A stretch of DNA of 64,000 nt from Romanomermis culicivorax (taxonomy: Eukaryota > Nematoda > Enoplea > Mermithida > Mermithidae): contig CAWUHX010000081.1 in NCBI GenBank assembly GCA_963922205.1, positions 806,001 to 870,000 on the forward strand, given 5' to 3'. The translations under genes were made by a program, and so were the position numbers. Numbering within the stretch: the stretch's first letter is position 1; the number at the start of each line of letters is the position of its first letter. The notes beneath the pieces are model-generated. The model did not search any database and was not told the origin of the DNA. It was given only the letters and a program-made list of their open reading frames with translations. This document shows positions 16,133 through 54,475 of this stretch, in pieces.

Positions 16133-16136
16133 AGTA

Positions 16137-22950: not shown

Positions 22951-25900
22951 TCAATTAGATTTGGCTGATTTCATTTGCAAAAGCAACGTGCGCATGCGGC
23001 TGACGTCTTTCGCATTTTTGCTAGCTTTCGGATTGAATTCGCAAAGGCGCGCTATGCGTTCCCATTCTTGACCGGGTAGATCGACGTCCCGTTCGCGGAC
23101 GAATTCCTGTTCGGCGCTCCTAAGGTAAACCGGAAGAATTTTAGAGAACTTAGTTGTACGATGAGACATGCCTGAAAATGTACCTTTAAAGAGAAATCTT
23201 GGTAAGTGTTTCAAAGTTTCCAAGATTCAGAGGCATTAAAAACCAATTCAATGAACGCAAATTAACTTTTAGAGAATTTTTGTCAAAATTTTCACTCAGG
23301 GGTTTCACGACTATTCTGATAAACAATTTGAAAGGGAGCCTACGCAGCCGAATAATTTTTTACCTTTTATAGTATTTTTACGTTGTAAACTAAAAATCGG
23401 AAACGTACCTGTTATTGGGGGGGGGGGGGGATTGGGCGACTCCTCCAACTTGCTCGGACCCAGTAACCAAATTTTTTCGCATCAAACTCGTACAAACTAG
23501 GCAAAAAGCCATTTTTGAGATCATTCGAACATCTCCAACTAACCGGGAGGTCTTACAGGTGTGACCGGAAGATAAGCTGAAAGTATTACTTGTTGCTATT
23601 TTTCGTTTTTTCTAATTGCTCATCACGTATTTTATACCAATCTTCTAACTCTTTTCTTGCTTGTTGACGTAGTCTTTCTTTTTCCTTTTCTTCTTGGGCA
23701 TCTAAAGGGAGAAAATTCACATCAGAATGGATCAACACAGAACAAGAATGTAAAGGTTAAGTATTGTCGCAACAATATTGTTCGGTTACTATTATTAATC
23801 AAAAACATGTCTGATGGAAAATTATATCCAACTTACGACTCAACTTCGTCATTCAAAAAGTGAAAAATACGACTCGAAAACCTAAGGAATTAGTGTTTGG
23901 GGAAAAAGTTGAATGATACTATGTATGCATTCAAGTACAAAAATTGTCAAAAATATTTTTTTGGCCAAATCGTTAACTGTTTTTTGTACTTGGAAGAAAA
24001 ATTGTAAATTTATTTTTGTGGATAAGGAATGGACTTAAAAAACAATGTAAACTTGCTTTGATAAAACTCGATTTGTAGCCCGTATGAAAAGTGTTTCCGG
24101 AACAACGTTCTACGACAGTTTTATCAAACATACTTCAACGCCGTTTAAATTAGTCTAAAAGTTGTTTGACATGAAAAAGTTCTTTCTAGAGAGAAAACAT
24201 TCTCGTTGTAAAAGAAAAATTGCACATACTAGCCCCTTTTTCAGAATCGCATCTTTAAACCGAGTTTGAAGTTAAACCGTCTTTTAGAAATCCATTCATC
24301 ATTGTCTCTGCATTTTGAACTTATGGAAGAATCCGATGTGTAGGTAGTGATCAACCGGAGGTTCAATTTTATTTCCAGTCAGAGGTGTAATGTAATATAG
24401 TCCATAAATCTTACACGTGAACTTGAGCTGCATGAACATTTTATTTTCTCAACCACATCGCTATTTATTTCCAAAAGAGCTGACTTCATCATCACTATTT
24501 TCATTTTGACTGCTTTAAGCATTAACCCTTGAATCAATGTCTGGAGGTGAGTTTGTTGAATAACATGGCAGGGCTCAGAAACTTTACCAAATTTTACATC
24601 AAGAATAAGTCTGGAAACATTTCTCGGCTTTAACCTTACGCGACTTCCATTTGCAGCATTTCTACCACATTCGAATTCTAATACAAACCAACAAATATTG
24701 AGTGGCAACCTTAGAAATTAGTTTATTTAATCCTTTACGTAATAATTTGTATCAAGGTATGCCCCACTTTGCACAATTTAGGGAATTTCCGAACATTCAC
24801 TTTCCAATTGGTCAACTTCCAAACAAGTGATGCGCACTGTTGCCTTTTAGGATAAAAGCCGTTCCAGCCCACGTATCCGGCCAGCGCGTTTCTTGGTTAA
24901 AAATAAGTCACAATTGATGAAAATGAAAACCTTCGGCCACTTTTTAGAATACCCGGGGGTCGGAGGTCGAAAAATAGGCCGGATTTACTGGAGCTCCGGC
25001 CGGCCTAACGTATTCGGACAAACAATCACCCCGACAAGCCAACTATCAGTGAGACTGTTACATAATTATAATTTATATATTATGTTTTACTAGGATTTTT
25101 CATAGACAAGATTCAGCAAAAAAATTTTCGCGTACCCGTAGCTGAATTGCATCGAGGGACCCAAAGACCATAGTCGATGACTCACTCCAACTTTTGATTC
25201 GAAAATTTTACCCTCCAGTAGGTCGAAAATCAAGGAAAAATACCATTGTTTGGTCAAACATTTTTAATGGATCCAAAAAGTTTATAGTGTTGCCGTTTGT
25301 GTATTTAAGGGCCGCTAAAGGACATTCTTCAAGTAAACACTAGAAAATTTTTTGCGGCCCTAGGCGGCCGCCCAGTTCGAACTTCCCTAAGAACGACCCT
25401 GTCAATTTTTTGGGAAAAACTTTTTCGGTGCTTGTTGATTATAGTGTTTTTTTCTGCACAGTGCAGACTTTTTAGGCTTCGTGTAGAATTTTTTTGGTGA
25501 TTTCTGCACTGGTGCAGAATTTTTTGAGTCATGTGTTTGATCACATCGGATACAGAAAAGATACATTTTGGTGCATTTTAGAAGGTCATAAACCTCAAAA
25601 TTTTCGGGCATGTCTACTTTCTGGTCCTTCGCACGGAAAGATTAATATCTTTTTTGGGCTCTCACTTGTCATCATAGAGGACTTAACCGTTGATTTCTCA
25701 TGTAATTCAAAGTCATTATGCTCTTGTATAGTTTGCTGGGAAATTTGTTACACGATGCTTGTAGATAAAACTTCGATCAAACTCAAAATTTTCAAATGTT
25801 TCCTCGACTGAATGATGGCTCTGAAAAACAGCAGAAGGTTTGAAAAAGCTCAAAAATATATAAATAAAGCATCAGTGAACATTTTTAAGCGAAAAATGAT

Positions 25901-28900
25901 TCCGGGAAAATGGGGAAACAAATTTTGACTCCTTCTCCTATTTGGGGAAAAGGCCCGGGGAAAAGACAGTGGCAAGAGGAGAAAACCGCAGTGCAGAAAC
26001 TTTTTTGGCTTTTCTGCACTGTGCAGAAAACCGGGTGCAGAAAAAAAAACATTGGTTGATTCCCATGTAAATTTCGGAAAAATTCGGAGAATTCCCTTAC
26101 ACAAAGATTGACTTTAACCCCGTTGCGGAATACTCCTATACATTACCTTTGTTTTCTAAGCGTGTTTTTTGTTCGTCTCGCCATTTCCTGATTTTCTCGG
26201 GCTCGATTCGCGGCATTACGGGTATAGCCACGGGCGGCGTCACGGCCGATTGAGGCCTTAAGTCGCTGGCGACCGGTAGCGAGTCAAAGGACGTCACATC
26301 AGCGTTAGTCGTTGAAATATTATCATCGTTTTGGACGCCAAAAAAATCTTGTTCGTCACCGTTCAAATTCGCATGGCCGTTAGTATCAGAGAAACCGTTC
26401 AATTGGGACGTTGGGTGACTAAGTTCGTCAACTACGAGGTTACATCGAATTGCATTTTTTGGAGCACAATTTTGAGATTATGATGGGGAAAAAGTATTGC
26501 AGTGATCGGATAATTTTTTACATTTAGATACATGAATTCCGGAGCAATCCATAGGGTGCAAGGGGGAATTACCCCGATTTTAGGTTTATAAATTCATTTA
26601 CCACCCGGTAAAAATGACTAACTGGTCGAGTGAAATGAAACAAAAATGACTTTGTATGTACTGGTACACACAATTTTGGGAAGCGTCATAATGGATAAGC
26701 CAACTTGAAGGAAATGAGTAAAGGGTCATTTATAATTGTCTTTTTGGACGGAACGGAATGCAATGGACACAACGTAACCGTACGAAAGGGGAATTTTCGT
26801 TCCGTTCGGTTGGAAATTGCCGTCAGTCGTTTTCCTCCAAATCGCAGTTATCCTTTTCGACCGAAAGTGGATTTTCAGGCCGAACACATCAAACTGTTGG
26901 CGATCCGTTCCCTTCCGTCGAAAAGGGCAAGTATAAATGACCCTTAAGGGGACACTTCTAGAAGGACTGCTATTGGCTATTTTTTGAGTGCGCGGTCAGT
27001 TTGAGAAAAAAGTATGTTTACTGTGTCCACGCGTTTGAAAATGACTGCATAAATGATTTTGATGTATGAAGGTGAAAAAATTGACAGCCGTACAGAACCA
27101 CTGGTTTTTGTAGGAGGTATACATATTTGGCTGCGTGCGAAGATTTTCGTGGTATGTTTGTAGACATTTTGGCGAGATAACAGTTATCTTGAGCGTAGCG
27201 CAGAAGTCTATGAGGTAAGTCTTGGTATCGGATTATCCACCGTTTTCTGTAAAATTGTTCTTTTGGAAAAATGTTCAGAAAGTAGCCAAGGTAGTGGGGA
27301 ATAAGTGATGTGTACATTGCTGTACACCTACTGTATGCAAGAAGCCACCGAAATGTACACCACCTGCGAGCTCACACAGCGAACAAAAAAACGTCAAGAT
27401 GAGGCATGGGAAAAGTACCAGGGTTCCTAGACTACTGGTCAAAGAATCCCCTGAATTTCCCAGGTATCCATAAATATTTTCCCAGGTTTTTGACATACAC
27501 AATTGGGTTGGGACACAATTTTCGTTGTTTACACTATATACTTTTAAAGTGTGTATTGCAGTTTTTTTGGTTTTTTCTCGACAATCCATTTGGCTCCTAA
27601 GGTCAAAATTTTACAGGTCAATAGGAATTTCAACAAGCCAAAACTAAATAGTTTGTAAATAAATGTGGTAATAAAAAACAAAGTTTTTTTGCAAAAAATT
27701 TAGTCAAAAACAATCTCCAAAATCACAGGAAAAGCCCGCGAAGCAGATCAATCATTTTGAATACATTCTTAATCACACACAGAATAATAAGGCTCACACA
27801 TTAGATCTGTCATTATTCGAATCAATCATCAGGATTTTTTCGCACAGCCAGGCTGATCTGTAACTTGGGCAAGATTTGGTTGCACAAATTAATTTTTAGT
27901 TGCTCACTCTAAAATTGATAAATTTGCTTATTTAATCAGAAAAATGATCAAAAATTACTTTCCTTGTATTTCATTCATTCAGTTCCTGACTTTCAAATTC
28001 AATTTCTTGAGTTTTGGGTGCGAAATCAAAAGTCTGGCTAGAGTAACTTGTTCGGTGCCAAGCGCCGAAAAATTTTGATTTCGAGGCCTCTAAAATGTCG
28101 GAAAATTCATTTTCAGCACATTCTACTGAAACTGCCGATTACCGATCTTTTTTATTACCGATCGTTAATTATTATTAACGTTTTAATCAATTTTTTTAAC
28201 TGCTGTTCAACAATTTATAAGCAGCAAAGTTATAATACTTAAATGAAAAAATCAAAAATAACCATTTTTAACAAACCGCCCTCTGACCTTTTGTTGTCAC
28301 ACCAAGCGCTGGGCCTTACGTTTGAGCCTTTTGTATGAACATGCGGCCCAAGACAAAAATCCCCCGAGTTTACCAGGTTTCCCAGGTGCTGAAAAAAATC
28401 CCGAGTTTCCCAGGTTTCCAAGGTTGTGTAGGAACCCTGAAGTACTACCTGAACCATATACAATTTCACCCCTATCTAGATTATCGACCTTAGGGACGTC
28501 CGATGAATTCCGCATTAAATTTTTTACTTGAGATACCGAGATCATATTTCTGCCATTGATACCAAAAATTACCATAAACTAAAATAGTCATTTCAAAACT
28601 GATACATAAAATTACTGTGCTTCTGCATTACATCCTCCGTAAAATTTTTTCGACCTTTGCACTATATATAATCGATTGTCTAAGCCTAAGTTAAAAATGC
28701 GCAAAAAATTTTGCGGGGAGCACAGTACCAAAATTATTTCTCGCCTCAAGTACTAGAAAATTCTAATCCTAATATTTCTTATGTGGTTCAATAACAACTA
28801 GTCCTACATATGGGATCAGAAGTAATCAAAAAAGTTAGGCTTCACAACATACCACGACCGAATGCGTCTTCATCGTCCAAGACTGCGAATTCGTCCTTTT

Positions 28901-28940
28901 CTCGGGCGAGAAAATCGGCTAAAGGGTCGCTCGTGGCCAT
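22951..28940 (-). CDS. Clc: clathrin light chain, four exons
   Basis: The light chain binds the clathrin heavy-chain hub and regulates coat assembly in endocytic and Golgi vesicles. The minus-strand exons are 28940-28853, 26431-26147, 23701-23590 and 23119-22951. Junctions are in frame (phases 1, 1, 2) with donors GTATGT, GTAATG and GTAATA, giving 217 residues, close to other invertebrate light chains. Family marks: an N-terminal DPLADFLARE motif (residues 5-14); an acidic, Asn-rich region; the heavy-chain-binding helix with IEPEKIRKWRDEQKTRLE (about 105-122) and KELEDWYKIRDEQLEKTK (about 141-158); and the conserved C terminus with EWERIARLCEFNPKASKNAK then DVSRMR. The last is close to the family signature. 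Introns of 2.4 kb, 2.4 kb and 0.5 kb hold repeat fragments. ATG context and exon 1 length fit the family. The small second-exon acceptor (CTCGTAG) was chosen because it alone keeps the frame. Confidence 0.93.
23404..23563. mobile_element. G-tract MITE (family A) copy in clathrin intron 3
   Basis: Ends CGTACCTGTT and TACAGGTGTG, one mismatch each from the family consensus CATACCTGTA/TACAGGTATG, enclose a long G run and the family block ACCCAGTAACCAAA. Flanking octamers ATCGGAAA and ACCGGAAG agree at six of eight positions, suggesting a decayed target duplication. It lies in the 470-bp intron between exons 3 and 4 of the clathrin light chain gene. Confidence 0.55.
25440..26060. repeat. R1 repeat, partial copy with word cassettes (intron 2 of Clc)
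   Basis: The R1 core is seen in reverse orientation: TGCATTTTAGAAGGTCATAA, GGCTCTCACTTGTCATCATA, GAGGACTTAACC, then CAGAAGGTTTGAAAAAGCTC. The central half of the core is missing compared with 44290-45120. On both sides lie cassettes with short palindromic words: CTGCACAGTGCAG and CTGCACTGGTGCAG at 25455-25520, GGGGAAA/TTTGGGGAAAA at 25905-25965, and TCTGCACTGTGCAGAA at about 26010-26030. There is no coding potential. Confidence 0.65.
26600..27060. repeat. dispersed repeat, 'TAAAAATGACT.ACTGGTC' family, copy 2
   Basis: This is the second copy of the repeat at 11240-11500, sharing GTAAAAATGACTAACTGGTC, 'GGAAATGAGTAAAGGGT' and 'GTTTACTGTGTCCACGCG'. It is interrupted at 26721-26945 by a separate GC-richer insertion. 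Confidence 0.5.
26721..26945. mobile_element. short TIR element, AAGGGTCATTTATA ends
   Basis: The left end AAGGGTCATTTATAATTGTC and the right end, read on the opposite strand, AAGGGTCATTTATACTTGCC, are near-perfect inverted repeats. They continue into TTTTTGGACGGAAC / TTTTCGACGGAAG. The 225-bp unit interrupts a dispersed repeat. TTAA lies at the right edge and TAAA at the left, loosely resembling a piggyBac-type target but not conclusive. The GC-rich open frames through it are by-products. Confidence 0.55.
27840..28110. repeat. R2 repeat, copy 1
   Basis: Blocks GTAACTTGGGCAAGATTTGG, TTGCTCACTC, TTGAGTTTTGGGTGCGAAAT and GAGTAACTTGTTCGGTGCC followed by AAGCGCCGAAAAATTTT recur in order at 34900-35160. 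The end carries a GGTGCC-AA-GCGCC hairpin like those of the R1 family. It lies inside clathrin intron 1. Confidence 0.5.
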
Positions 28941-28999
28941 TATGATCAGAACAATGTGCTACTCAAAGTAAAAAAGCGTTTATCCGATAGGAGATGAAA

Positions 29000-30180
29000 C
29001 CTACAGCGAAATTGGGATGAAAGAATAAATAACCAATATTATATCTGAATATCTATATCTGAAAAGAAAACACAGCTTCGATTTAATTGAATCCGCATGA
29101 ACCCATGGAAATGTATTACACTCGACATCTTTGGTGCACAAACATAGCATTAGTTTTACAAACGTTTGCTAAGGCTAGGGACATTACTGTGGGTGAGAAA
29201 ATAGTGGTTTTCAGGCATTCCTAAGGTACTATTAGGTTTGATTCACACCTACATACACAATGGAGCATATACTAAAGGGTTTTCTTATTTCTTGGGCTTA
29301 GCTGTAAGGGCGTAGCACTAAGTCACGTCGGCGGGTCCCCAGCCCCCAATGCAGTATATTGGGTCGTTCGGTGGTCGCCGAAGGCATCCACCAATCCTCT
29401 GAATTTAGCCTAATCAGGATTATTTTGAAAGACTATGATCTGGCGAGCCTGCGAAACTTTTAATTTTGGGGAACGACGAGTTGGCGAGTTAAGACCACGT
29501 GGAGAAATGATGGTAAATGTAAAGAAAAACGGTAAAATGTCGGACAGTTTACCATATAAAAAATCTTTTAAAGTCTTTTTGAGATGAAAATAATATTTTT
29601 TTAATTTGGGATAACCTTTAGGAAAGTCTTCGGATTTTGCTTAGGCTTAAGGTGTGTTTATACTTCGCTCGAGGAGGCCCGCTCGGGTAGAACAGCTCGA
29701 GCAGTCGTGCTCAAGCATCCTATATAGTAAAGCGTATATTCCTGCTAATACAGGCATGTACGCTTTTTCGAATGCATGAAAGTAGCCGATTGGAATAAAG
29801 CTCAGTCGCAGATATTTTTATTTGTTGTGATTGTTTCTTTTCTTGGATTTGCATATCGGTTAATACGGACGCGAAGAACGCGAAAGAGTTTTTCGAATAT
29901 TCATATTCTAGAACGTTGGAAAATGAATCTAAATTACACTTACTGTATAAAACGTACCATTTTTAAGTCAGCTCAATCATTTTCCATAGTCGAGCAAAGT
30001 CATATTAAAAATATGCAACTAAAATTCAATAATCAGGCAAGCAACCGGAAATTTGGATCCTATAACCATCGAGAATTTTTAAAATTCTTCTAAAATGCAT
30101 CAAAATGTTTACGACCTCAACTTCATAAAAAAATTTTGCGTTATTCGGAGAAAGCGCTCAAAATTTTTTTCGTTAAAAAC
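29000..30180. other. clathrin upstream region; no gene recognised
   Basis: This stretch lies immediately upstream of the clathrin light chain ATG. It includes a GC-richer patch at 29320-29400 (GTCGGCGGGTCCCCAGCCCC) and another at 29650-29720. A plus-strand open frame at 29776-30093 begins with a hydrophobic segment but has no other support. Confidence 0.3.
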
Positions 30181-30189
30181 ACTGATATG

Positions 30190-30830
30190 GTGGAAAAAAT
30201 AAACAGCGTGTTTTTTGTGCGCGGACATTTGTGCCAATTAATACAAGAGGCTTAAAAAATTTGTGCCAATGGCACAAAAAAACTTTTTTCTGCTAGAAAC
30301 ATATACTGAAAAATACGAAAAAGTTTTAGAAGAAATGTTTGATAAAAAATGCCTAATTATTTTAACGCATTCATTTGTGAAAGATCGCGCCCAACCTATT
30401 TTGCAGCTGACCCGGTCAGTGAGATGAGAAAAAACTGTGTAAGGAGACTGTTTACGACGCGAAAAGAAATGGAATGCTGCAAAAATTTAAATAAAACTTT
30501 TGGATTGTTCAGGAACTTGATATTTTAATTCAATTTTCGGCTACGAATATCTTTCTAACAACGATGCAAAGACTTTGAAGAAATTCGAAAATGTGTAAAT
30601 TTTTGGTCAAAAGAATGTACCAACAATATCGACTTCTATATTTGAATCGATTAAATACAAAAAAAGTATTTCAGATTCAAATCAGAATCCGACTGAACGA
30701 ACACAGAAAATTCAGAATTCATACTAATTTATCAGTCATTAACCTATAAAGTTTGCTGCAACGATAAAATTACACTATTCGAAGAGAATTCGTTGACCAA
30801 ATACAGGTAGGTAATATTATATTCATTGAG
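30190..30830. repeat. R3 repeat, copy 1
   Basis: It begins with TTTTTTGTGCGCGGACATTT and continues through TGCCAATGGCACAAAAAAAC, AGAAACATATACTGAAAAA, 'TTTTAACGCATTCATTTGTG', 'GCAGCTGACCCGGTCAGTGAG' and 'CACTATTCGAAGAGAA'. The same blocks in the same order form 38818-39470. Short GTGCCAAT/GGCAC palindromes sit at the left end. It is non-coding. Confidence 0.55.
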
Positions 30831-31289
30831 TTGCAGTGTTTTTTTGTACTTTACAAACGAAACGGCCCAGAGTACAAACAAAAATTTTAGGACAAAAAAT
30901 TTTTTTGTCACTCAGCAGCCATCAGTATTCAGTATCAATGGACTTGTTTGTTATGCGTCCCCATCTATAACGACAAACTAGCAGCTATAGCAAAATAATA
31001 AAAGCTTTTTGTGAAGTTCACTAGTGCATGTTCTGTGAATCACGATCAAGTGTTTTATGTGTCTCGTGGAAATAGCCAACGTATTCATATTTCACAGCAT
31101 ATTTGTTGCATTTTATAACAACGAATGCCTTTTTTAGCAATTTTTCGCAGATTTTGGGGTACAAACGGTTTTTGAGAGGTCGTTTGTACCAGTACAAATG
31201 GACCCAGTACAAAAAAACACTGTTGACTTGGTGCGAAGCACCGAAAACATCACGTTTTCAGCCTAAAAATCAAGGAAATTTAGTGCTGG

Positions 31290-32260
31290 ACCAGTAAAAA
31301 TTTTTTGTACCAATTGGCACAAACGCTCAAAATTTTTTGTGCCATTTCAATTTTTTTGTGCCAAAAACCATATTTTGAAAAACACTGTGACCACTGTCTT
31401 TTTCCGCCAGCCTTTTTTCAAAATGGGGAAAGAGGTCAAAATTTTTTACCCATTTTCCTTAAGCCTTTGCTTAAAATGCTCATAGACGCATTGTTGAAGT
31501 GTTTTTGAGCTTTTTAAATCATTCTGATACTTTTAGAGCCGTCAATTCATTGAAATTGAAGAAAAACTTGAGACTTTCGAGTTTGATGTCTAATTTACAA
31601 ATATTGTGGAACAAATATTCCAGCAAACTATCCAATGACATGACTTTGAATTACATGAGAAATCGATCTCTAAGGCCTCAACGATGACAAGTGAGAGCCC
31701 AAAAAATAGACATTGATCTTTCCGGAAAAATTATTTGGGTGTGACATCCTGCGACACTGGAAAATCAATTTTCCGAACTAATATTTCAAGAATTAGATTC
31801 GAATTTTCGGTTCAAAAATAGTAATTTTTACAAATTTATCATTTGGAAAATGTTAAAAGCAGTAATTCTCCAAATTTACTTCCATGTAGTTTTTGAATTC
31901 AGTTTGTGTTAAGAAAGGAAAAGTCGCTTAAAAAATATCAGAATGTTGACATGTTTAATTTTCTCAAAAAATGTGTCAATGAAGGAGTGCGGATATTCAT
32001 TAGATATAAAGATGAAATATTGAAGATTATCAATTATAACATGAGACGATACGTTTCAGATGATGAAAACCATTAAAAGTTAAATGGTAAGTGAAGGTAG
32101 ACAGAGTAGATATGCTAGAAGCCGCGCATGAGCTTGGTAATGAATAATAATGATTATTAAAGTTATAACCGGCGCGAAAAGCCAGAAAATTTTGAGATTT
32201 AAACCTTCTAAAATGCACAAAAATGCACCTTTTCTATATCAAACAATCAAAATTTATTTC
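31290..32260 (+). repeat. R1 repeat, full copy (plus orientation)
   Basis: The core runs from AGCCTTTGCTTAAAATGCTC through TTTTTGAGCTTTTTAAATCA, GATGACAAGTGAGAGCCC and CAATTATAACATGAGACGAT to AAAGTTATAACCGGCGCGAA near 32175. It is preceded by cassettes built on the words GTGCCAATTGGCAC and TGTGCCA (31300-31370). It follows the same order as 37590-38400 and the reverse of 42601-43330 and 44290-45120. Several hundred bases of good similarity with no open frame indicate a non-autonomous dispersed element. Confidence 0.65.
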
Positions 32261-32688
32261 TCAAAATTGGGAAAGAGCCCTAAATTTTTTTCCTTTTACC
32301 GAACTTTTTCATCAAAAAGGACGATTTGGGGAAAAACAGTAGTCCTGGGGGGTGTCGGACGATTTTCTACGACTTCCTTCGGACAAGGGGGGGGGTCGCA
32401 GTTGTCCCAAAGTTTTAAGCGAGAGGTCTCTGAAGGAAGAAAACCTTTACCAAGGAAGTTCGAAAAATGTCAATCACCGTATAAATAGTATTTTCGGCGC
32501 GAAGCGCCGAAAAAATTGACGTTTTTAACCATTTTTTTCGAAAATTGACGTTTTTCATCAAAAAATTCATTTTCCAAAATTTTTCCGAAGTATGAAGGTT
32601 CCCATGACTACCATATGGCTAGCCATAGGATTGGAAAATCTGGAGGGAGTCGCCCCATGGCGATTTTTTTGTATGGGAGGATTTCTAG

Positions 32689-32844: not shown

Positions 32845-32984
32845 GTTCCAAGAGCACTTAACCTAAATTACATGCACGGGAGGGGGGGGGGGGGCGCGAA
32901 AAAGTCGAAAAAATTTCGAAAATTTTCCAAAAAGGTACTTTTTCTAATTTTTCCGAGTGGGGGTTCCAATCAGGGTTTTTCCGC

Positions 32985-33045
32985 ACAGTGCTGTGCGGAA
33001 ATTTTTTTGGGCATTTTCCGCACAGAACGGAAATTTCTTTGGGCG
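32985..33045. repeat. palindromic word cassette (CCGCACAG/CTGTGCGG)
   Basis: Within 60 bp the word CCGCACAG appears twice and its complement CTGTGCGG once, each followed by A/T tracts and GGGC: TTCCGCACAGTGCTGTGCGG, then TTTTCCGCACAGAACGGAAA. It belongs to the class of self-matching cassettes described in the findings. Confidence 0.5.
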
Positions 33046-33071
33046 TTTCTACTGCTGGCATTGACGAAAAT

Positions 33072-33272
33072 TATACCTGTACTTGGAGGGGGGTTGGGGG
33101 GGGGACCCCCAACTTGGCCAACCCAGTACCCAAAATCATTTCCCCCCAACCCCCCCCCCAGTTTGGAAAAACTTAAAAAAATTTTCAAAAAAGTGTATGT
33201 TTTTTGGCCTTTTTTGGGGAAAATTTCGACTTTTTTCTACCCCACCAACTGGTCGGAGGTCTTACAGGTATG
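33072..33272. mobile_element. G-tract MITE (family A), near-intact copy
   Basis: The 201-bp unit has ends TATACCTGTA and TACAGGTATG and flanking octamers ACGAAAAT (33064-33071) and ATGAAAAT (33273-33280), seven of eight identical. The interior has the family order: G-rich block GGGGGTTGGGGGGGGGACCC, CCAACTTGGCCAACCCAGTA, a C-rich block, the AT linker with GTGTATGTTTTTTGGCC, and ACTGGTCGGAGGTCTTACAG. The proline- and glycine-rich open frames across it are compositional. Confidence 0.7.
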
Positions 33273-33726
33273 ATGAAAATAGGTGCAATTTAGATGGTCA
33301 AATCTCAAATTTTTCCGGCGATCCGCGCTGGAAATGAAAATAATTTATAATATTAACTACAATTAAGCTAAAGCACAGCCAAAAAGAAGTTTAGTTTGAT
33401 TTCTCTGTTGTCCCTGATTGTTTCCATCAATCTTATATGTCTCTGCTAAAGTGAGTAAAACTCCTCACTTTGTCGTGTGAATTGGAATTCTCATATGAAT
33501 TTGCTGATTTTTCCCACATTTCTCCACACATTTATTTAATACCATCATTTTTCTAAGAAAAATCTAAACCGAAAGTATTACAAATTATCTCTAGAATACA
33601 TTTTCCAACATTTCAGTAGCTCCTTTGTTCGAAAATTCTCTGGTGTGACGCATCAGAAGTTAAGTGTGCATGGTTTTCATGATTTGAAGTTTCTCATCCC
33701 GTTTATCAATAAGTAATCTTCAGTAT

Positions 33727-33978
33727 TATAGTCTTTTTTTCTTGAAATGCTTCTAACTAATGAAGGTGGAAAGCAAGCAGTATTTCAGATTTTCACGATT
33801 TTCTGAAAAACAATATATCATATAGGACTGGAAATTTGTGAGCATACTGACCTAGACTTTAAAATTTTTCGAGTGAGAAATTTTAAAGCAGGAGTTCTAT
33901 GTTAAAGATTTATACGACAGTACTGATTCGTGTTACTTTTTCAATTTGAAAGCATTTTGTAAAAAACGGACTATAGGC
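33727..33978. mobile_element. MITE family C copy
   Basis: The left end ATAGTCTTTTTTTCTTGAAA followed by TGCTT matches, in inverted form, the right end AAGCATTTTGTAAAAAACGG followed by ACTATAG. It shares GGTGGAAAGCAAGCAGTATT and 'GGACTGGAAATTTGTGA' with 16137-16380. Confidence 0.6.
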
Positions 33979-34379
33979 TCGGATTTTGTTGAAAATTGAG
34001 ATTTAATATTGATCTTCATGAATTCTTTCTCTCACTTGAAGCTTTCTGAACTTTGTGAACACAAATTTTGTCATTGGGAAACTACACGATTCTCGACTGA
34101 AAATGCAAACCTTTTATTTTAGAGATAAAGGTTGAAAAGGCTCATTTTCCAGCATTCTAGAATATCAAAATGTAGAAATTGAATCACTTGGAAAATCAAT
34201 TGAAATCTATAAATCTTCAGCTCTAATCACAGAAATGACAGCAGCAACTATTAATTTTGCTCAATCAATCTAAAATAATGTTTTTGAGCTAGAAAAACAG
34301 ATACTTTCCATTATTTTCTTAGCAATCTATAATTTTCGCTCATTTCACACATTTTTCAAATGATTTGAACTTCGAACGG

Positions 34380-34545
34380 AAAAAATTTTCGTGTGCGGAA
34401 AAAATTTTGGGTCATTTCCGCACGGTGCGGATGAAGGCGTGCGGAAAAAAACCCTGGTCCCAATTACAGGTAGTGTTCTTGTTTTTTTGCCCCTTTTGAG
34501 GAAAAACCCCAAAAATGTTTTCCTCATGAGGAAAAATTAATTATT
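34380..34545. repeat. two palindromic word cassettes (GTGCGGAAA; CCTCATGAGG)
   Basis: At 34390-34460 the word GTGCGGAAAAAA occurs twice and TTTCCGCAC once. At 34490-34540 GAGGAAAAA occurs twice with TTTTCCTCATGAGGAAAAA. Both have the A/T-tract spacing seen at other cassettes. Confidence 0.5.
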
Positions 34546-35160: not shown

Positions 35161-35169
35161 AGATCGATA

Positions 35170-36270
35170 TTTTGATATTCCAAATCGATATTTTGGTATT
35201 CCTTTTCAACTTTTATTTCCTAGACAGAAGGTTTAATTTTTCAGTGAATTCAATGAATTTTCAGTCGGGCGGACTACAATTCAGAAACTAGGAAAGCAAT
35301 CAAGAATTTTGATTCTTCAACCAGCGAGAATTCCCACTTGGACTCAAAATGTTTTAGACACACAAATGTGAAAATCTTTAAAGACTGCAAAAAGACTTTG
35401 GGAAAATAACCGAGAAAAATCTTGCTTCTCGTCAAATTCTCAAAAAACGAGACAGGATCAAACATTTATCCAAAATATCTTGATAATTAAAAGCTGCAAG
35501 CACTAGCTAGAATGATATTTTCTAACCGCGCACTCACGTAAGTTCAAACGTAATCCGATAGTCAGTCGTCGACGAATATCTCAAGAACAACTCAAAACTG
35601 AAGCGCGGCAAAGGTTTACTCAAATGCAGAATAGAATTTTTCATCAGAAAAGTGTAATTTGACTAGTTCATATTGTTGTAAATTTGTAATAAAATAAATA
35701 GAACTGACAAAAAATTGTGTGGAACGGTGCGAATCTATCAGAAACTGAAATCTACAGTAACCTGAATTTTTGTCTAAAGCACAAAACTTCTGTTGTAGTT
35801 GTCCATTTTTCATGATTTATGGCTCAAATTGAAGATAAAAAGATTTTTGACAAACACAAAGAAGTTTTTTTGGATAGAGTCAGTATTCCCGCCGCAGATA
35901 AGAGTTGAACTAAGGCTATTCTGGTTCCGACAGTTTACTTTGAACTCGATCACTCTTTTATTCTTTCTATTCTATGCAACGATAGAGAATTAAAAATGCT
36001 ATCGAATAAGCTATCACATGCTTTTTAAACTGAGCATGGAGAGAAGTTTTGTAAATTCCAAGATTTCGTTAATTCCGGCTATCAAAATCATGCATAAGCA
36101 GATAAAGTCGGCGAAAAATCAAACAAGCTTCGGCCACATAACTGTGTTGGAAATGAAAATGTATCATTTTGAAGCATGTCCTTTGGTGTGCCTCAACGAA
36201 AACTCGAATTGGGTTTTGATGTAAATCTTTTTCGCTTCGGAAGTACTTGGCGTTCAAGGTTTTGTAGGAT
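35170..36270. other. no gene recognised
   Basis: AT-rich spacer with short open frames on both strands (for example 36018-36224 plus) that have no splice support. The octamer CGTGGATT at 36272-36279 is the left target duplication of the following hAT element. Confidence 0.35.
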
Positions 36271-36279
36271 ACGTGGATT

Positions 36280-37311: not shown

Positions 37312-37389
37312 CGTGGATTGATATTACTGTAACTCTTAAATGTGCGCCAAAATCCACGTGCACTGGAATCATACATAAAAATTATTAAA

Positions 37390-38400
37390 TAATTAAAATC
37401 CGACACGAAGCGCCGGAAAATTTCAAGAATTTTCAATTTTATACCGCGTAAAATGCACCTCCGAACAGGAAACCATCAAAAAATTTTCCCTCAAATTGGT
37501 GCCTTCAAAAAAATTCCTCAAAAGTGGTCGATTGAGGAAAAAACATGTGGAAAAAATTTTTTCGACTTAAAATCCTCGTTTTTTGGCTTAAAAATGCTCA
37601 CAGACGCTTTATCACACTGTTTTTGAGCTTTTTCAAGCCTTCTGGTGTTTTTAGAGAAGTTAATTCATTAAAGTTGAAGAAAAAATTGAAATGTTCGACT
37701 TAAAAGCCTAATCTACAAGCATTGTTGAACAAATTTTCTAGCAAACTATGTATCCAAGAGCATAATTGACTTGAATTACACAAGAAATCAATAGTCATGT
37801 CCTCTACGATGACAAGTGAAAGCCCAAAAAAGATGGTAATCTTTCCGGTGCGATGCGCCGGAAAATTTTTTGGGTATAATGACATTCTGGGATGCTGAAA
37901 AATCAACTTTCCGAACATTAATTTCGAGAATTAGATTCCAATTTTGTGTTCCAGAGTCGTAATTTCTAGAATTTTACTTGAAAAATTTTAAAATCTGTAA
38001 TTTATTTGTAAACTCTCATGAACTTGGTCGAAAATATACGAGTAAGAAGAGTATAAATTTCCGAAAGATATTTCCATGAAGCTTTTGAATTGATTTTACG
38101 TTAGCAAAGAAATAATCGCATCATAATGCATAGAGACTTGACGTATTGACCTTTCTCAGAAGGAAAAAATGCGAATCTTCATCAAATATTATGATAAAAT
38201 GTTGAAGATTACCAATTAAAACATGAGATACTACGTTTAAGATGATGAAAACTATTATGGATTAAGTGATAAATGAAGGTAGACATGATAAAAGCCGCGC
38301 CTGAGCTACTTAATGAATAATGATGATTATTAAAGTTATAACCGGCGCTAAGCGCCCGAAAATTTTGGGATTTGAACCTACTAAAATGTATGTTCTCAAT
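37390..38400 (+). repeat. R1 repeat, full copy (plus orientation)
   Basis: It opens with GACACGAAGCGCCGGAAAAT and a cassette whose word is CCTCAA/TTGAGG (37490-37545), followed by the core from GCTCACAGACGCTTTATCAC. A mid-core hairpin CCGGTGCGATGCGCCGG sits at about 37846. The core continues through CGTTAGCAAAGAAATAATCG to AAAGTTATAACCGGCGCTAA and GCGCCCG (38342-38357). This is the best single reference copy for the family in this window. Confidence 0.7.
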
Positions 38401-38639
38401 ATGAAAACCCCAAATTTGGAATTTTTACGGATGGCGGTGGCCACGCCGAAATTTCTCTGACGCCGGTTTTTGGGGGTTTTCACGATGAAGGGAAGAAAGA
38501 ACGAGTGAAATTATGCATGGGAAAAGCGCCAAAATTTGGACCCTTCGGGCGCAGCTGCTGTACCCTAAGCCTAAGGAAAATTTTAAAGGAAAAATAAACT
38601 CAAATTAGATTTCCAAATTCGTTGACTTTCGACAATAAA

Positions 38640-38900
38640 GCGCGTCCCTAATTAGTGTTTTTTGGTGCCAAAACATGGTTTTTGGCACAAAAAAATTTGC
38701 GGAGGCCACTGCCATCCGTAATTTACCCCCAAATTTTTCTTCCACATTTGTGGAAAGACCTCAAAAATTTTTTCCACATTATAGTGCAAATGTGGAAAAA
38801 ACAGTGGTTGCCACACAGCGCTTTTTTGTGCACGGACATTTGTGCCAATTGGCACAAGAGGCCAAAAAAATTTGTGCCAATGGCACAAAAAAAAATTTTC
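38640..38900. repeat. cluster of palindromic word cassettes
   Basis: Three cassettes are stacked. GTGCCAAAACATGGTTTTTG followed by GCACAA lies at 38663-38690. CCACATTTGTGGAAAG plus CCACATTATAGTGCAAATGTGG lies at 38740-38805. GTGCCAATTGGCACAAGAGG plus GTGCCAATGGCACAAAAA lies at 38842-38890. Within each, the same word appears in both orientations. Confidence 0.55.
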
Positions 38901-39470
38901 TACCAGAAACATACTGAAAACTGCGGAAGAGTTTTAGGCCAAAAAATTTGATGAAAAGTTAACGTTTAACGCATTAATTTTTTGTAAAAAATCGTGCCCT
39001 ACTTATTTTTCAGCTAACCATGTCAGGGAGATAACAAAAAAACTGTGCAGGAAAATAGTTCACGACGACTCGAAAAGAATTAGATGCTGAGAAAATTTAG
39101 ATAACTCTAGATTATTAAGGAAATTCAACCTGATTCAATTTTTGACTCCGAATATGAATATCTTAGGTATATATGTATAAAAACTATGTAAAGACTAGAA
39201 AGAATAAAGTCGAAAATTGTGTAAATTTTCGGTCGAAACATTGTACCACTACCAACGATATCGATTTTTCTATTATTCTATTGGAATCAATCAAACACAA
39301 AAAGTGAGAATTTCAGTTTTAAATCCGAATCTGACTGAAACTGAATGAACAGAAAATATTCACAATTTTTTTTCATTCATCAGTCGTTGACAATGACAGC
39401 CTGTAGAGTTTGCTGCAACGGTACTAATACACTGTTCGAAGAGAAATCTTTCGCATTGGGCTCAATTATA
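38818..39470. repeat. R3 repeat, copy 2
   Basis: It matches 30190-30830 in block order, from TTTTTGTGCACGGACATTTG to CACTGTTCGAAGAGAAATCT. It joins an R1 copy in plus orientation on the left (37390-38400) to one in minus orientation on the right (from 39475), forming a large inverted arrangement. Confidence 0.55.
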
Positions 39471-39474
39471 CATT

Positions 39475-39689
39475 GTTTTTTCCACATTTGCACTATAATG
39501 TGGAAAAAAAATCTGGAATGTGGAAAAAATTTTTAAGGTCTTTCCACAAATGTGGAAGAAAAATTTGGGGTTTTCATATTGAAAAGATACATTTTGGTGC
39601 ATTTTAGGAGGTCCAAATCTCAAAATTTTCCGGCGCTTCGCGCCGGTTTATAACTTCAATAATCATCCTTATTAAGTAGCTCAGGTGCG
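39475..39689 (-). repeat. R1 repeat, outer part of a minus copy (continues at 42601)
   Basis: A cassette on CCACATTTG/AATGTGGAA (39480-39560) is followed by TGCATTTTAGGAGGTCCAAA, the hairpin CCGGCGCTTCGCGCCGG (39630-39646) and TTCAATAATCATCCTTATTA. The sequence then stops at the hAT element start (39690). The rest of this copy resumes at 42601. Confidence 0.6.
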
Positions 39690-40868
39690 CAGGGTTGGCA
39701 ATGCTTTGGTTTTTTGGTTTTTTAAAAAAACCAAAAAATTGGAAAATCTCTGGTTTTTTCCAAAATCATTGGGAAACTGTTTTTTGACATTAGTCGATCT
39801 TCTAGGTATGTATTGGTGTCTATATAAATCAACAAAACAATTAACTTAGTTGAATTGAGTTCACTACAGAGTAGAAGAAAGTCGTACTTTTATGATACAT
39901 TTCGTATTCAAAAGATGTGATATAAATATCAATCGATATCCTTAGTATACATTTTGCAAGCACACATTTAGTGAGTCGAGTTTGCTATAATTTGCTCACA
40001 AAAAAATTTGACGCTGAATCTTTCATAGAGTTTACTCCAACTATGCGGGGGTGACATCTATTGTTCCATATCATCATCGAAATTTTATAAAATATGATTG
40101 AGGTTAATATCCTGAATTTATTTTTACGGTAAGCTTTTTAATTTTCTCAGCTCGAAATTTCAAAATATAAATGAGACAACAATAATAAAAATTTTATACA
40201 GATCATTTGAGAATACTGTAGGTTAAGAAAGAGAAGAGCTTTTGAGTGGCTCATTTTTACGTGACTTGACATCGCTACTAAGTAGAAAAAATTGTGCAAA
40301 TTATATATATCATGCATACCTGTAAGACCTCCGACCAGTTGGGCGGGGGGGGGGGTAGGAAAAAGTCGAAATTTTTTCCAAAAAACATACACTTTTTGAA
40401 AATTTTTTTAATTTTTTCCAAACTGGGAGGGGGGGGGGGTTGGGGGGGGGGAAATGATTTTGCGTACAGGGTTGGTCGAGTTGGGGGGAGGGGGGTCCCC
40501 CCCCCAACCCCCCAAGTACAGGTATGATATCATGCTAGCGAGAATAGTATAATATAATAAGACCCATTTGCTGTAGTTATAGCTCGCAGACAGGTTTGAA
40601 AAGCAAAAATTTGGAAACATCAGAAATGTCTATGTGTGACCTTAAAGTGCAGTTTGTAATATCAATAACATGTAATAATCTATCAATTTAAAACCCTCTT
40701 ATCGAAAACGGTATGCTTGAAAATTGTGTCATTTCAACTTTTCTGTGCATATGTATATATGTGATGCATTGATACAATTTTGTAGTTGATTTCTTTTGAG
40801 TTTTGATTACGTACATTGTGTATTGTATATTTCTCTATATTTGTATTTTTTCTTCTTTTCCTTGAATT
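39690..40868. mobile_element. hAT element, first (partial) representation before the gap
   Basis: This segment is nearly identical to 41026-42211, including an internal family A MITE at 40315-40526. It breaks off in CCTTGAATT at the N run. It is probably the same genomic locus represented twice, see the findings. Confidence 0.7.
40315..40526. mobile_element. G-tract MITE (family A) with perfect 8-bp TSD
   Basis: The 212-bp unit has ends CATACCTGTA and TACAGGTATG and perfect flanking octamers ATATCATG (40307-40314 and 40527-40534). An 8-bp duplication suggests mobilisation by a hAT-type transposase. The interior carries paired G and C runs and the AT linker common to the family. It is nested inside the larger hAT element. 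Confidence 0.8.
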
Positions 40869-40968
40869 NNNNNNNNNNNNNNNNNNNNNNNNNNNNNNNN
40901 NNNNNNNNNNNNNNNNNNNNNNNNNNNNNNNNNNNNNNNNNNNNNNNNNNNNNNNNNNNNNNNNNNNN
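40869..40968. other. assembly gap, 100 N
   Basis: Exactly 100 N, the conventional length for a scaffold gap of unknown size. The sequence right of the gap (from 40969) restarts at the same hairpin found at 39631, so the two sides overlap by about 1.2 kb. Confidence 0.99.
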
Positions 40969-41025
40969 GGCGCTTCGCGCCGGTTATAACTTCAATAATC
41001 ATCCTTATTAAGTAGCTCAGGTGCG

Positions 41026-42600
41026 CAGGGTTGGCAATGCTTTGGTTTTTTGGTTTTTTTAAAAAACCAAAAAATTGGAAAATCTCTGGTTTTTTCCAAA
41101 ATCATTGGGAAACTGTTTTTTGACATTAGTCGATCTTCTAGGTATGTATTGGTGTCTATATAAATCAACAAAACAATTAACTTAGTTGAATTGAGTTCAC
41201 TACAGAGTAGAAGAAAGTCGTACTTTTATGATACATTTCGTATTCAAAAGATGTGATATAAATATCAATCGATATCCTTAGTATACATTTTGCAAGCACA
41301 CATTTAGTGAGTCGAGTTTGCTATAATTTGCTCACAAAAAAATTTGACGCTGAATCTTTCATAGAGTTTACTCCAACTATGCGGGGGTGGACATCTATTG
41401 TTCCATATCATCATCGAAATTTTATAAAATATGATTGAGGTTAATATCCTGAATTTATTTTTACGGTAAGCTTTTTAATTTTCTCAGCTCGAAATTTCAA
41501 AATATAAATGAGACAACAATAATAAAATTTTATACAGATCATTTGAGAATACTGTAGGTTAAGAAAGAGAAGAGCTTTTGAGTGGCTCATTTTTACGTGA
41601 CTTGACATCGCTACTAAGTAGAAAAAATTGTGCAAATTATATATATCATGCATACCTGTAAGACCTCCGACCAGTTGGGCGGGGGGGGGGGGTAGGAAAA
41701 AGTCGAAATTTTTTCCAAAAAACATACACTTTTTGAAAATTTTTTTAATTTTTTCCAAACTGGGAGGGGGGGGGGGGTTGGGGGGGGGGGGGGGAAATGA
41801 TTTTGCGTACAGGGTTGGTCGAGTTGGGGGGAGGGGGGTCCCCCCCCCAACCCCCCAAGTACAGGTATGATATCATGCTAGCGAGAATAGTATAATATAA
41901 TAAGACCCATTTGCTGTAGTTATAGCTCGCAGACAGGTTTGAAAAGCAAAAATTTGGAAACATCAGAAAATGTCTATGTGTGACCTTAAAGTGCAGTTTG
42001 TAATATCAATAACATGTAATAATCTATCAATTTAAAACCCTCTTATCGAAAACGGTATGCTTGAAAATTGTGTCATTTCAACTTTTCTGTGCATAATGTA
42101 TATATGTGATGCATTGATACAATTTTGTAGTTGATTTCTTTTGAGTTTTGATTACGTACATTGTGTATTGTATATTTCTCTATATTTGTATTTTTTCTTC
42201 TTTTCCTTGAATTTACCCCTTACATTGTATCTCATGCTCTGTTCCATTTTTTTCTCATGTTCTTCACTCATGGTTCCTTTCTTATGTGCCCATTATTACT
42301 GTATTTCTATTGCTACAATAGGGATTTCCTACAGCATAAAATAATGAGACTTCCGATAAGATTAATACTTAGCTGTCATTTTAAGGCTCCCTAACTAGTC
42401 TTAGATGATACAGGGAGCTTCCAGCAGTTTTTTTACATAGTTATTTTGATGTACCAAACATTCTAAAGAATTAAACCAGGAAAAAACCACTAAAAAACCA
42501 TAGAAAAAGAAAAAAACCATTAAAAAACCATAAAAAACCACTAAAAAACCAAAAAAACCAAAAAGTCGAAATTTCAAAAGTTTGGTTTTTGCCATCCCTG
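41026..42600. mobile_element. hAT-superfamily non-autonomous element, 8-bp TSD
   Basis: The 1575-bp unit begins CAGGGTTGGCAATGCTTTGG and ends, on the opposite strand, CAGGGATGGCAAAAACCAAA. It is flanked by perfect octamers CAGGTGCG (41018-41025 and 42601-42608). It split an R1 copy whose two halves are at 39475-39689 (or its duplicate at 40969-41025) and 42601-43330. Both ends contain repeated CCAAAAAA/TTTTTTGG words, especially AAAAAACCAnTAAAAAACCA at 42480-42560. No transposase coding is seen. A family A MITE (41651-41869) is nested inside. Confidence 0.82.
41651..41869. mobile_element. G-tract MITE (family A), duplicate of 40315-40526
   Basis: Same ends and same flanking ATATCATG octamers as at 40315. 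It differs only in the lengths of the G and C runs, which is what sequencing or allelic variation in homopolymers would produce. Confidence 0.75.
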
Positions 42601-43420
42601 CAGGTGCGGCTTTTATCATGTCTACCTTCATTTATCACTTAATTTATAATAGTTTTCATCATCTTAAACGTAGTATCTCATGTTTTAATTGGTCATCTTC
42701 AACATTTTATCATAATGTTCAATGAAGATTCGCATTTTTTCCTTTTGAGAAAGATCAATACGTCAAGTCTCTATGCTTTATGATGCGATTATTTCTTTGC
42801 TAACGTAAAATCACTTCAAAAGCTTCATGGAAATATCTTTCGAAAATTTATACTCTTCTTACTCATATATTTTCGACCAAGTTCATAAGAGTTTGCAAAT
42901 AAATTACAGATTTTAAAATTTTTTCAAGTAAAATTCTAGAAATTACGACTCTTGAACGCAAAATTGGAATCTAATTCTTGAAATAATGTTCGGAAAATTG
43001 ATTTTCCAGCATACCACAATGTCAATATACCAAAAAAATTTTCCGGCGCTCCCATCTTTTTTGGGCTTTCACTTGTCATCATAGAGGACTTGACCAATCG
43101 ATTTCTCATGCAATACAAAGTCAATCCTAATGCTCTTGGATAGTTTATTAGAAAATTTGTTCCACAATGCTTGTTGGTTAGGCTTTAAAAGCGAACTTTA
43201 AATTTTTTCTTCAATTTCAATGAATTAACTTCTCTAAAAACACCAGAAGGCTTGAAAAGGCTCAAAAACAGTGCGATAAAGCGTCTGAGGTGAGCATTTT
43301 TTAAGCCAAAAACGAGGATTTTAAGACGAAAAAAATTTTTTCCACATGTGAAAAAAATTTGACCCCTTTCCACATGTGTGGAAAAAAGTTCGTGGAAAAA
43401 AAACAGTGCAAATATACGAA
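42601..43420 (-). repeat. R1 repeat, inner part of the interrupted minus copy
   Basis: It continues from the hAT insertion with GCGGCTTTTATCATGTCTAC and runs through 'CTTGTCATCATAGAGGACTTG' and 'CAGAAGGCTTGAAAAGGCTC' to 'GTGAGCATTTTTTAAGCC'. It ends with a cassette on CCACATGTG/CCACATGTGTGG (43340-43385) and ACAGTG. Confidence 0.65.
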
Positions 43421-43424
43421 TAGA

Positions 43425-43790
43425 AATCGTTGACTACGGCGCGAAGCGCCGAAAATTTTTTGCGTTTTCAGCCCCTAAAACGTCTAAAAATCAAGGAAAT
43501 TTAATGTTTGACCAGCCAATAATTTTGTGCCAATTGGCACAAACGTTCAAATTTTTTTGTGCCAAAAACCATGTTTCGGCACAAAAAATACTGTTGCCAC
43601 CAGTGTTTTTTTTTTGTGCCAAAACATGGTTTTTGGCACAAAACAATTCGAAATGGCACAAAAAATTTTGGGCGTTTGTGCCAATTGGCACAAATTTTTT
43701 GACTATTCGACTGCCGAATTTCTTTGATTCTCAGTCATTTTAGGGACTGAAACGGCAAAATTTTCTCGGCGCTCCGCGCCGAGTCAATTA
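43425..43790. repeat. hairpin-bounded block with GTGCCAATTGGCAC cassettes
   Basis: A block is bounded by hairpins CGGCGCGAAGCGCCG (43437-43451) and CTCGGCGCTCCGCGCCGAG (43765-43783). Between them the word GTGCCA or its complement occurs about ten times, including two perfect GTGCCAATTGGCAC palindromes near 43527 and 43678 with GTGCCAAAAACCATG between. Confidence 0.6.
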
Positions 43791-44189
43791 AGTGTAATAT
43801 TAGTCAAATGTCAGGAATCTGAAAGAATTGTTTTCTAATAGTAGATTTGTATGATCGCAACAAACCTTGAGATTGTCAATGATTGAAAAATGAATTAGTT
43901 AACTTCCACTGTTCATTCACTGTGATTGGAAACCGAAATTTTCATCTGTTTGATTCGAACAGAAAAATTTACCCTGTTGGCACAATTTTTCAACCAAAAA
44001 TTTACGCGACATGACTTGCGTTCTTCTTTTTTCAGGAAAAATCATATAGGACATCCTTAATTTATTTACATCGGTGTTATGAAGAAATCCGTAGCCAAAA
44101 ATAAAGAAAAATATAAAATGCCTGAAAAATTGTATAAAAATTATCTGAATTCTCGCACCATCTGATTTCTTTCCGAACACTGTTTTCTT

Positions 44190-45190
44190 TCCCAAATCGT
44201 GCTTTTTCGGGAAAAAAATTCGGAAAAGAGAAAAAAATTTTGGGCTCTTTCCTCATTTTGGGGAAGAAAAATTTTGGGGATCGGATGCAGAAAAGATGCA
44301 TTTTGGTGCATTTTAGAAGATCATAATCTCAAAATTTTCCGGCGCTCCGCGCCGATTATAACTTTAATAATCATTATTATGCATTACTTAGCTCAGGCGC
44401 GGCTTTTAGCATGTCTACCTTCATTTATCATATAATCTATAATAGTTTTCATCATCCTGAACGTATTATCTCATGTTTTCATTGGCAATCTTCAATATTT
44501 TATCATTATATTTAATGAAGATTCTCATTTTTTCCTTTGGAGAAAGATCAATACGTCAAGTCTCTAAGCTTTTTGATGCAATTATTTCTTTTCTAACGTA
44601 AAATCAATTCAAACGCTTCATGAAAATATCTTTCGGAAATTTATACTCCGCTTACTCATATATTTTCGACCAAGTATGAGAGTTTACAAATAAATTATAC
44701 TGGTTTTATAAATTTCCAAGTAAAATTCTATAAATTACGACTTTTGAACACAAAATTAAAATCTAATTCTTGAAATAAATGTTCGGAAAATTGATTTTCC
44801 AGCGTCGCAGAATATCAATCTTACCCAAAAAATTTTTCCGGCGCTACGCGCCGGAAAGGTTTACATCTCTTTTGGGTTCTCACTTGTCATCATAGAGGAC
44901 TTAACCATCGATTTCTCATGTAATTCAAAGTCATTATGCTTTTCGATAGTTTGCTTGAATGTTTGTTCCAATGCTTGTAGATTAAACTTTGAACTCGAAA
45001 ATTTCAATTTTTTCCTCAATTTTAATGAATTAACGGGTCTGAAAACACCAGAAGGCTTGAAAAGGCTCAAAACACCTAAATAAAGCGTCTGTGAGCATTT
45101 TTAAGCGAAAAAACGACTTCAGGAAAATGGGGAAAAAAATTTTGACCCCTTTCCCCATTTGGGGAAAAGGCCCGGGGGGAAAAAACAGTG
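44190..45190 (-). repeat. R1 repeat, full copy (minus orientation)
   Basis: The copy is bounded on the left by a TTTCCTCATTTTGGGGAAGA cassette and the hairpin CCGGCGCTCCGCGCCG (44339). The mid hairpin CCGGCGCTACGCGCCGG is at 44838-44854. On the right lies a cassette on CCCCATTTGGGG (45150-45170). The core between is in the same order as 42601-43330. Confidence 0.7.
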
Positions 45191-45554
45191 TTTCCGAATC
45201 GTATAAACTGCTTTCTTCATCAGTTTTTCTTATCGCACTGACCTGACGTGCTTAAGATAAAATAGAGTTGGCACGATTTGTTATGCAATTGGCATAAAAC
45301 TTTTTAAAAATTTTCAGTGTTTTCAGGCTGGAAAAAATTTTTTGGCCCTTTGTGCCAATTGGCACAGCACAAATGTCCGTGCACAAAAAAAAACGCTGGT
45401 TGCCACACGACTGGAGAAAATACAGTACTTATCTTCCAATATTCATTTTATACAAACCATATAAAAATAGTAACTTGTTGTTGCAACGAAAAGAAATACA
45501 AGGAAAATACCCACTGTCTGCTGAGCTGAATCGAGGTTATTGTCGGGAACATCA

Positions 45555-48126: not shown

Positions 48127-48129
48127 TTT

Positions 48130-49910: not shown

Positions 49911-49949
49911 ACCCGAGTCCATACCTGAATCATTTACCTCCCCCCCAAC

Positions 49950-54457: not shown

Positions 54458-54475
54458 GGAGTTGAACGTCCTCGT

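Follow-up and report, generated by a model that had tools for sequence, protein, structure and literature searches.

Word cassettes in Romanomermis culicivorax are probably the ends of non-autonomous hAT-type transposons

The stretch analysed here, referred to as the window, comprises 64,000 nucleotides from the mermithid nematode Romanomermis culicivorax (assembly GCA_963922205.1, contig CAWUHX010000081.1, positions 806,001 to 870,000). Between about 25440 and 45390 it carries a series of cassettes in which a short word is combined with A/T tracts and with inverted or same-orientation copies of itself, the word being constant within a cassette and different between cassettes. We believe, with a probability of about 0.85, that these cassettes are the termini of non-autonomous hAT-type cut-and-paste transposons and that the words are subterminal sites of family-specific hAT transposases. 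The original prediction knew of no described element class with this signature. We assign the cassettes to hAT transposons with subterminal repeats because the elements show 8-bp duplications and CANNG termini and because hAT transposase loci of the same genome have word clusters of their own. The kind of element is known, as are subterminal repeats of hAT elements; what stands out is that words are exchanged while the layout is kept, an unusually clear example of probable recognition sites having changed in concert.

Layout of the ends

Nearly all of the cassette words were found at the predicted positions or a few bases from them. At 25905 the CCCC copy is decayed, and CCCCATTTGGGG stands in full at 45153; the cassette at 31305 reads GTACCAATTGGCAC and the one at 39480 has a loop longer than NN. 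Decayed ends also lie beyond the range first described, at 11714 and 51665. The palindromes are indeed far above chance: a search for the form TTT-arm-(0 to 6)-arm'-AAA returned 11 in 25200-45500, compared to a mean of 0.03 and a largest value of 1 in 60 dinucleotide shuffles, and none in 1-25000 or 46001-64000. Nine of the 11 are words, since those at 32492 and 44835 are interior GGCGC..GCGCC hairpins. In a 20 x 10 kb sample of contig C1 there were 3 palindromes of the TTT-arm-arm'-AAA form, words and interior hairpins pooled. The whole window gave no RNA family match in Rfam at gathering scores, no tRNA in a tRNA scan and no match to a first generic end pattern.

Outward from each cassette runs a T run followed by a pentamer CANNG, which has its inverse counterpart at a matching distance. 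The ACAGTG that had been described as often following a cassette is present, and we read it as the transposon terminus (CACTG / CAGTG). Left ends are built as CANNG, T run, word and inverted word, A/T spacer, TTT, and again word and inverted word, while right ends are built as CANNG, T run, word, about 7 nt, TTT, word/inverted word, spacer, T run and word. In each end a single word of 5-6 bp stands about four times, at fixed positions, and although left and right ends differ in construction, each layout recurs across families, whose words are CCCCA, CCACA, CCGCAC, CTGCAC, GTGCC and GTAC.

Elements and their target duplications

Target duplications of 8 bp, the length made by the house fly hAT element Hermes, were sought at the boundaries of 10 candidate elements of the window. 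By chance, 8/8 is expected at an exact boundary with a frequency of 0.00015 and at least 7/8 with 0.00115, rising to 0.0013 and 0.0153 if the boundary is allowed to jitter. Seven of the ten candidates score 8/8 or 7/8, and E7 joins them once its boundaries are corrected.

Two of these elements belong to what we call the R1 family. E1 (44178..45190, plus strand) is a complete non-autonomous element, CACTG...CAGTG, with the duplication TTTCCGAA at 8/8 and the word CCCCA, which is clean in its right end and decayed in its left end. E2 (39471..43408, plus) has the duplication CAATTATA/CAAATATA at 7/8 and the word CCACA at both ends, with CCAC four times in each. E1 is nested in and interrupts X2 (43601..45398, plus), a GTGCC-word element that extends from a left end CAGTG at 43601 to a right end CAGCG at 45398, with GTGC 5 and 3 times at its ends and the duplication GTTGCCAC at 8/8. 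E2 is in turn nested in and interrupts X1 (38816..43593, minus), also of GTGCC type, with its right end CAGCG at 38816, its left end CAGTA at 43593, GTGC 4 and 4 times and the same duplication at 8/8 after a 1-base shift at each boundary. GTTGCCAC stands three times around X1 and X2, at 38807-38815, 43594-43600 and 45399-45407, the middle copy being common to both; the two elements abut in opposite orientations, apparently because the later of them inserted into the target that the earlier had duplicated. The CCACA element E2b (37546..38806, minus) also terminates at one GTTGCCAC copy; its left end is intact at 38806, its right end appears by eye to be truncated at about 37546, and in a self-comparison of the window it is 89% identical to E2 over 37543-38303.

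The remaining elements with duplications have other words. E3 (32971..34456, plus; CAGGG...CCCTG; duplication GTTCCAAT/GTCCCAAT, 7/8) has the word CCGCAC, with CCGC three times in each end, and contains a G-rich repeat insertion at about 33070-33276. E4 (30834..31222, plus; CAGTG...CACTG; duplication TTGAGTTG/TTGACTTG, 7/8) is only 389 bp long, has GTAC 2 and 4 times at its two ends and is nested in X3 (30204..31387, minus), a decayed GTGCC-word element that it interrupts and that was recognised by its match to X1, with GTGC 3 and 4 times. E5 (25442..26054, plus; duplication GTTGATTA/GTTGATTC, 7/8) is a composite with CTGCAC-word ends, inside which an R1/CCCC fragment (25545-25971) has kept its own right end CAGTG at 25971. 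An old R1-family copy, R1b (31392..32341, minus), has words decayed from CCCC and matches E1 at 72.5% over its length.

Both ends could be read in 12 elements, nine in the window and three in fetched loci, and in 10 of the 12 the commonest word is identical at the two ends, E1 and R1b being the exceptions. In a matrix of left against right ends for six word families, own pairing scored 60, where the mean was 11.5, and no other of the 720 permutations did better; under a looser score it was again the best, narrowly (21.44 vs 21.28), and the best partner of the E4 left end was not its own right end. The terminal pentamer varies more between the two ends than the word does, as in locus L021, which has CACTG and CAGGG. 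Copies elsewhere in the genome with both ends readable and 8/8 duplications are L021 (CCAC), L009 (CTGC) and L017 (GTAC).

Words across the genome

We searched the genome (359,112,060 bases in 595 contigs) using reversed patterns as controls. GTGCCAATTGGCAC occurs 4387 times, its reversed control not at all. Patterns for the ends gave counts that are inflated by overlapping matches: 2339+2559 for two arms and a third word with free letters (reversed 102+100), 1405+923 for spacer-anchored right ends (21+35), 1192+558 for the left inner hairpin (1+0) and 910+868 for the terminus with two words (6+3). Outside this genome, one R1 string searched in viral_contigs and one in genome_contigs gave no match, the search being limited to these strings.

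If cassettes share an ancestor, the original prediction argued, their direct and inverted words must have changed together, and it proposed looking for covariation across aligned copies. Between families both expectations were borne out. Genome-wide there are 1374 CCACA and 816 CCCCA palindromes and 12+13 in which A and C are mixed, i.e. 2190 concordant versus 25 mixed at this position (reversed controls 0). Among the matches listed, 100 copies from contigs C1-C7 have A/A at the third base of the two arms in 58 cases, C/C in 35, A/C in 1 and another combination in 6; first words in this set are sometimes mis-parsed by one base, and the two-arm comparison is independent of them. By-eye right-end consensus strings of the CCCC and CCAC types are identical at all but 4 of 42 positions, and three of these four are the same base in each of three words. 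The CCGCA palindrome is present at 27 sites with a loop of 2 or 3 allowed (2 for the others) and CCTCA at 15 (reversed controls 0 for both), which is below the 25 mixed A/C sites and makes CCTC a tentative state.

A word-agnostic search for CAGGG ends gave 82+71 matches against 16+14 reversed. It revealed a left-end layout occupied by no fewer than four different words (CCGCAC, CCGTAC, GTGCAC and CTGCTC), CTGCTC being found in a single intact row. In 71 strings among the matches listed, the first word agrees with the inverse of the last at 3.08 of 6 bases compared to 2.25 after shuffling (largest 2.83 in 20,000 shuffles); with a layout filter, which 43 of the 71 pass, the values are 3.49 and 2.80 (largest 3.51, with 1 of 20,000 shuffles reaching the observed value). 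Related copies enter these tests as if they were separate. A sounder argument comes from how many independent word states there are.

Within families the picture is different. The 100 copies comprise 58 of CCAC type, 35 of CCCC type and 7 unassigned, and 40 of the 93 assigned copies have at least one changed word, the mutations lying mostly in single words. A change shared between two words was seen in 2 of the 40, and both cases look as if the start of the word had been parsed one base off. In this small sample, from the first contigs only, words of the CCAC and CCCC families decay largely independently. Joint change therefore belongs to the founding of families and not to the upkeep of cassettes.

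Link to hAT transposases

The Pfam hAT dimerisation domain has at least 150 scored matches in the genome, all over the cut-off, of 1837 candidates. Some hAT genes have long open frames, examples being the 864-aa frames at C77:1206770-1206988 and C126:717442-717660. We compared 20 fetched hAT loci with 140 random segments, counting copies of one 6-mer in a 200-bp window near the domain: at least 6 copies were present at 17 of 20 hAT loci versus 11 of 140 random segments, and at least 10 copies at 11 of 20 versus 1 of 140. Apart from L034, one of the 17, the words at these loci are either CGGATA or of GGATCC types, which in several cases come with the termini TAGGGATG or TAGAGATG; the words are set between A/T tracts. 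One of the word-carrying loci, L032, encodes both a BED finger (zf-BED, E 2.2e-8) and the hAT dimerisation domain (Dimer_Tnp_hAT, E 1.3e-21), with GGATC words alongside. The GGATCC-type loci L042 and L043 have target duplications at 7/8 and 8/8. Termini of hAT elements follow the consensus YARNG, which CAGGG, CAGTG, CAGCG and TAGTG match and CACTG does not. Close to both termini there are several short repeats in fixed positions, resembling the subterminal repeats of Hermes and Ac.

L034 was considered as a hAT element with a word of the window's type and was set aside, its CCGCA belonging to a separate miniature element nearby that is not placed as an end of that hAT. At L032, L033 and L037, GGATCC-type hAT copies have X (GTGCC) or CCAC elements as near neighbours, which suggests that one family may insert in the vicinity of another.

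Several observations weigh against the assignment to hAT transposons. A transposase for CCNCA, CTGCAC, GTGCC or GTAC words was not found, the 20 fetched hAT loci bearing other words, and these loci amount to about three independent cases because many are near-copies of one family. L037, L039 and L040 have no word-dense window near the hAT domain, L034, L043 and L044 reach only 6 copies in the word-density test, and a number of hAT domains contain stop codons. The CACTG of the R1 families deviates from YARNG at position 3. Of the CCCC-type elements, E1 and R1b, with their decayed left ends, have no clean word common to both ends, and the old copies X3 and R1b show no target duplication at their boundaries.

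Proposed mechanism and related systems

In Hermes, BED domains bind a subterminal quasi-palindrome and depend on an A/T-rich flank and on sites that are rigidly phased, and use of the two ends is asymmetric, according to the passages cited here (PMC10368747). With Hermes as a model, the words of the window would be protein-binding sites, gripped by the zinc fingers (BED domains) of a single hAT transposase oligomer. The word would then reflect the DNA-binding specificity of the transposase, presumably that of its BED domain, and the A/T tracts and fixed spacing would reflect the geometry of the oligomer. Word sets may differ between families with the layout kept because each family answers to a different transposase, and a transposase able to mobilise the window's own words presumably exists or existed. 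After insertion, copies would decay independently.

The likeness to Hermes extends to short subterminal words, a quasi-palindromic pair just inside the terminus, A/T-rich flanks, rigid phasing and unequal ends; the difference is that Hermes, as described in those passages, is one system with the word AAGT/AAGC (PMC10368747), whereas here several families in one genome have different words in near-identical layouts. Maize Ac/Ds likewise has 8-bp duplications and non-autonomous elements with common terminal and subterminal repeats and unrelated interiors, and Ds-like elements without subterminal homology to Ac gave no response to Ac where tested; parallel families with exchanged words on one layout are not part of the description of Ac/Ds in the portion cited (PMC3260210). 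BED-type proteins derived from hAT elements, such as the CGG-binding proteins, are diverse in specificity, and for those that hAT elements encode the motif recurs in the element's own subterminal region, in a study of proteins whose cited part does not treat concerted word change (PMC8097297). Coral CMITEs resemble our elements in that the interior is conserved across families while terminal repeats differ, and in a composite formed by element insertion; unlike our elements they are piggyBac-like with TTAA targets, and word cassettes are not described for them in the part cited (PMC2872659). Among the open-access matches listed, no title or abstract opening describes one layout with exchanged words, though such a description may exist elsewhere.

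Origin of the words and alternative explanations

New words need not arise by stepwise mutation. Whole ends could be swapped as modules, by insertion or recombination, so that an interior is then carried by foreign ends, and we regard this as a possible, if rather unlikely, general account. E5 fits it well, having the R1 interior and R1's own right end inside CTGCAC ends, and a CTGCAC element without R1 exists at L009:7354-7691, with a second junction of an R1 right end and a CTGCAC end at L009:1-230; the coral CMITE-IN is a like case in the description cited (PMC2872659). The CCCC and CCAC right ends speak against it as the general rule, their differences at matching word positions looking like base-by-base change on one chassis. 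E5 thus shows one route to new words, in which a CTGCAC element took up an R1/CCCC element, and the CCCC/CCAC pair suggests another, change in place; we cannot rank the two firmly.

The original prediction had offered selection on a paired RNA or DNA structure, and gene conversion or template switching within the cassette, as reasons for the concerted words. Selection for a hairpin in single-stranded DNA or RNA would keep the arms complementary, and the palindrome arms do agree genome-wide. It is nevertheless very improbable, because the word also repeats in the same orientation and recurs at both left and right ends, hundreds of bases and in some elements about 1 kb apart; furthermore, within families, changes in one arm are unmatched by the other in the 100 copies above. 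Local conversion or template switching that keeps copying a word to its neighbours would make cassette words alike without selection, but in the CCAC and CCCC copies sampled changed words almost never share their change within a copy, and layouts and spacing are constant; we give it about as little credence. Least probable is membership in a different superfamily whose families have subterminal repeats of their own, for instance CACTA/EnSpm, which has the termini CACTA or CACTG and target duplications of 2-3 bp. The CACTG termini and many subterminal repeats of the R1 families would suit it, but the duplications are 8 bp, which largely refutes it, and related ends finish in CAGGG, CAGTG and CAGCG.

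Returning to family-specific hAT transposases, we tentatively suggest that a group of hAT transposons in this genome has split into mutually independent families in which one word changed at all of its about eight copies at once on a fixed layout, forming a natural set of orthogonal transposase-end pairs. On this suggestion the change would in places be a single base, as in CCCCA and CCACA with their near-identical ends, CCGCA and CCTCA being rarer states. How a transposase and its many sites change together is an open question, as a new specificity must arise at all sites in the two ends. This one genome offers several words on nearly the same chassis in many hundreds of copies, two R1 families being one base apart. 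It is therefore directly testable whether the protein changed first, the sites changed first or whole ends were swapped, and how BED fingers would tell words apart by one base. The assignment also explains a puzzling repeat signature that is open to confusion with an RNA element.

Other features of the window

Two further cassettes are present. At 37430..37545 (minus) lies the end of a CCTCAA-word element, its words identified by eye, and at 34496..34540 (no strand assigned) a CCTCATGAGG cassette with the palindrome TTTCCTCATGAGGAAA at 34519-34534. E7 (39690..42600, plus) is another hAT-like element type, CAGGGTTGGCAA...TTGCCATCCCTG, nested in and interrupting E2, with AAAACC words repeated near its right end; its duplication CAGGTGCG scores 8/8 with the corrected boundaries and 4/8 with the earlier, wrong ones. 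Overlapping E7, 39632-40868 and 40969-42213 are 98.9% identical direct copies on either side of a 100-N gap, probably an assembly artefact.

Interior hairpins GGCGC-NNN-GCGCC occur in R1 and X elements at 32492, 43437, 44343, 44835 and other places, and their loops, and partly their stems, vary between copies. Some have the loop GCGAAGC, which forms a highly stable DNA mini-hairpin. A dispersed repeat rich in G runs, often within other elements, is found at 33070-33276, 40310-40528, 41646-41871 and 49950-50307, and was matched also in L001-L004, L009, L014 and L018. Another dispersed family, with inverted halves at 69-75% identity, is represented at 14960-15372, 15912-16140, 50860-51096 and 63359-63572. 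Finally, two 904-bp direct repeats (53547-54450 and 56657-57560, 98.6% identical) surround a 558-aa open frame at 54741-56417 (minus) and together look like the remnant of a young long terminal repeat (LTR) retrotransposon.

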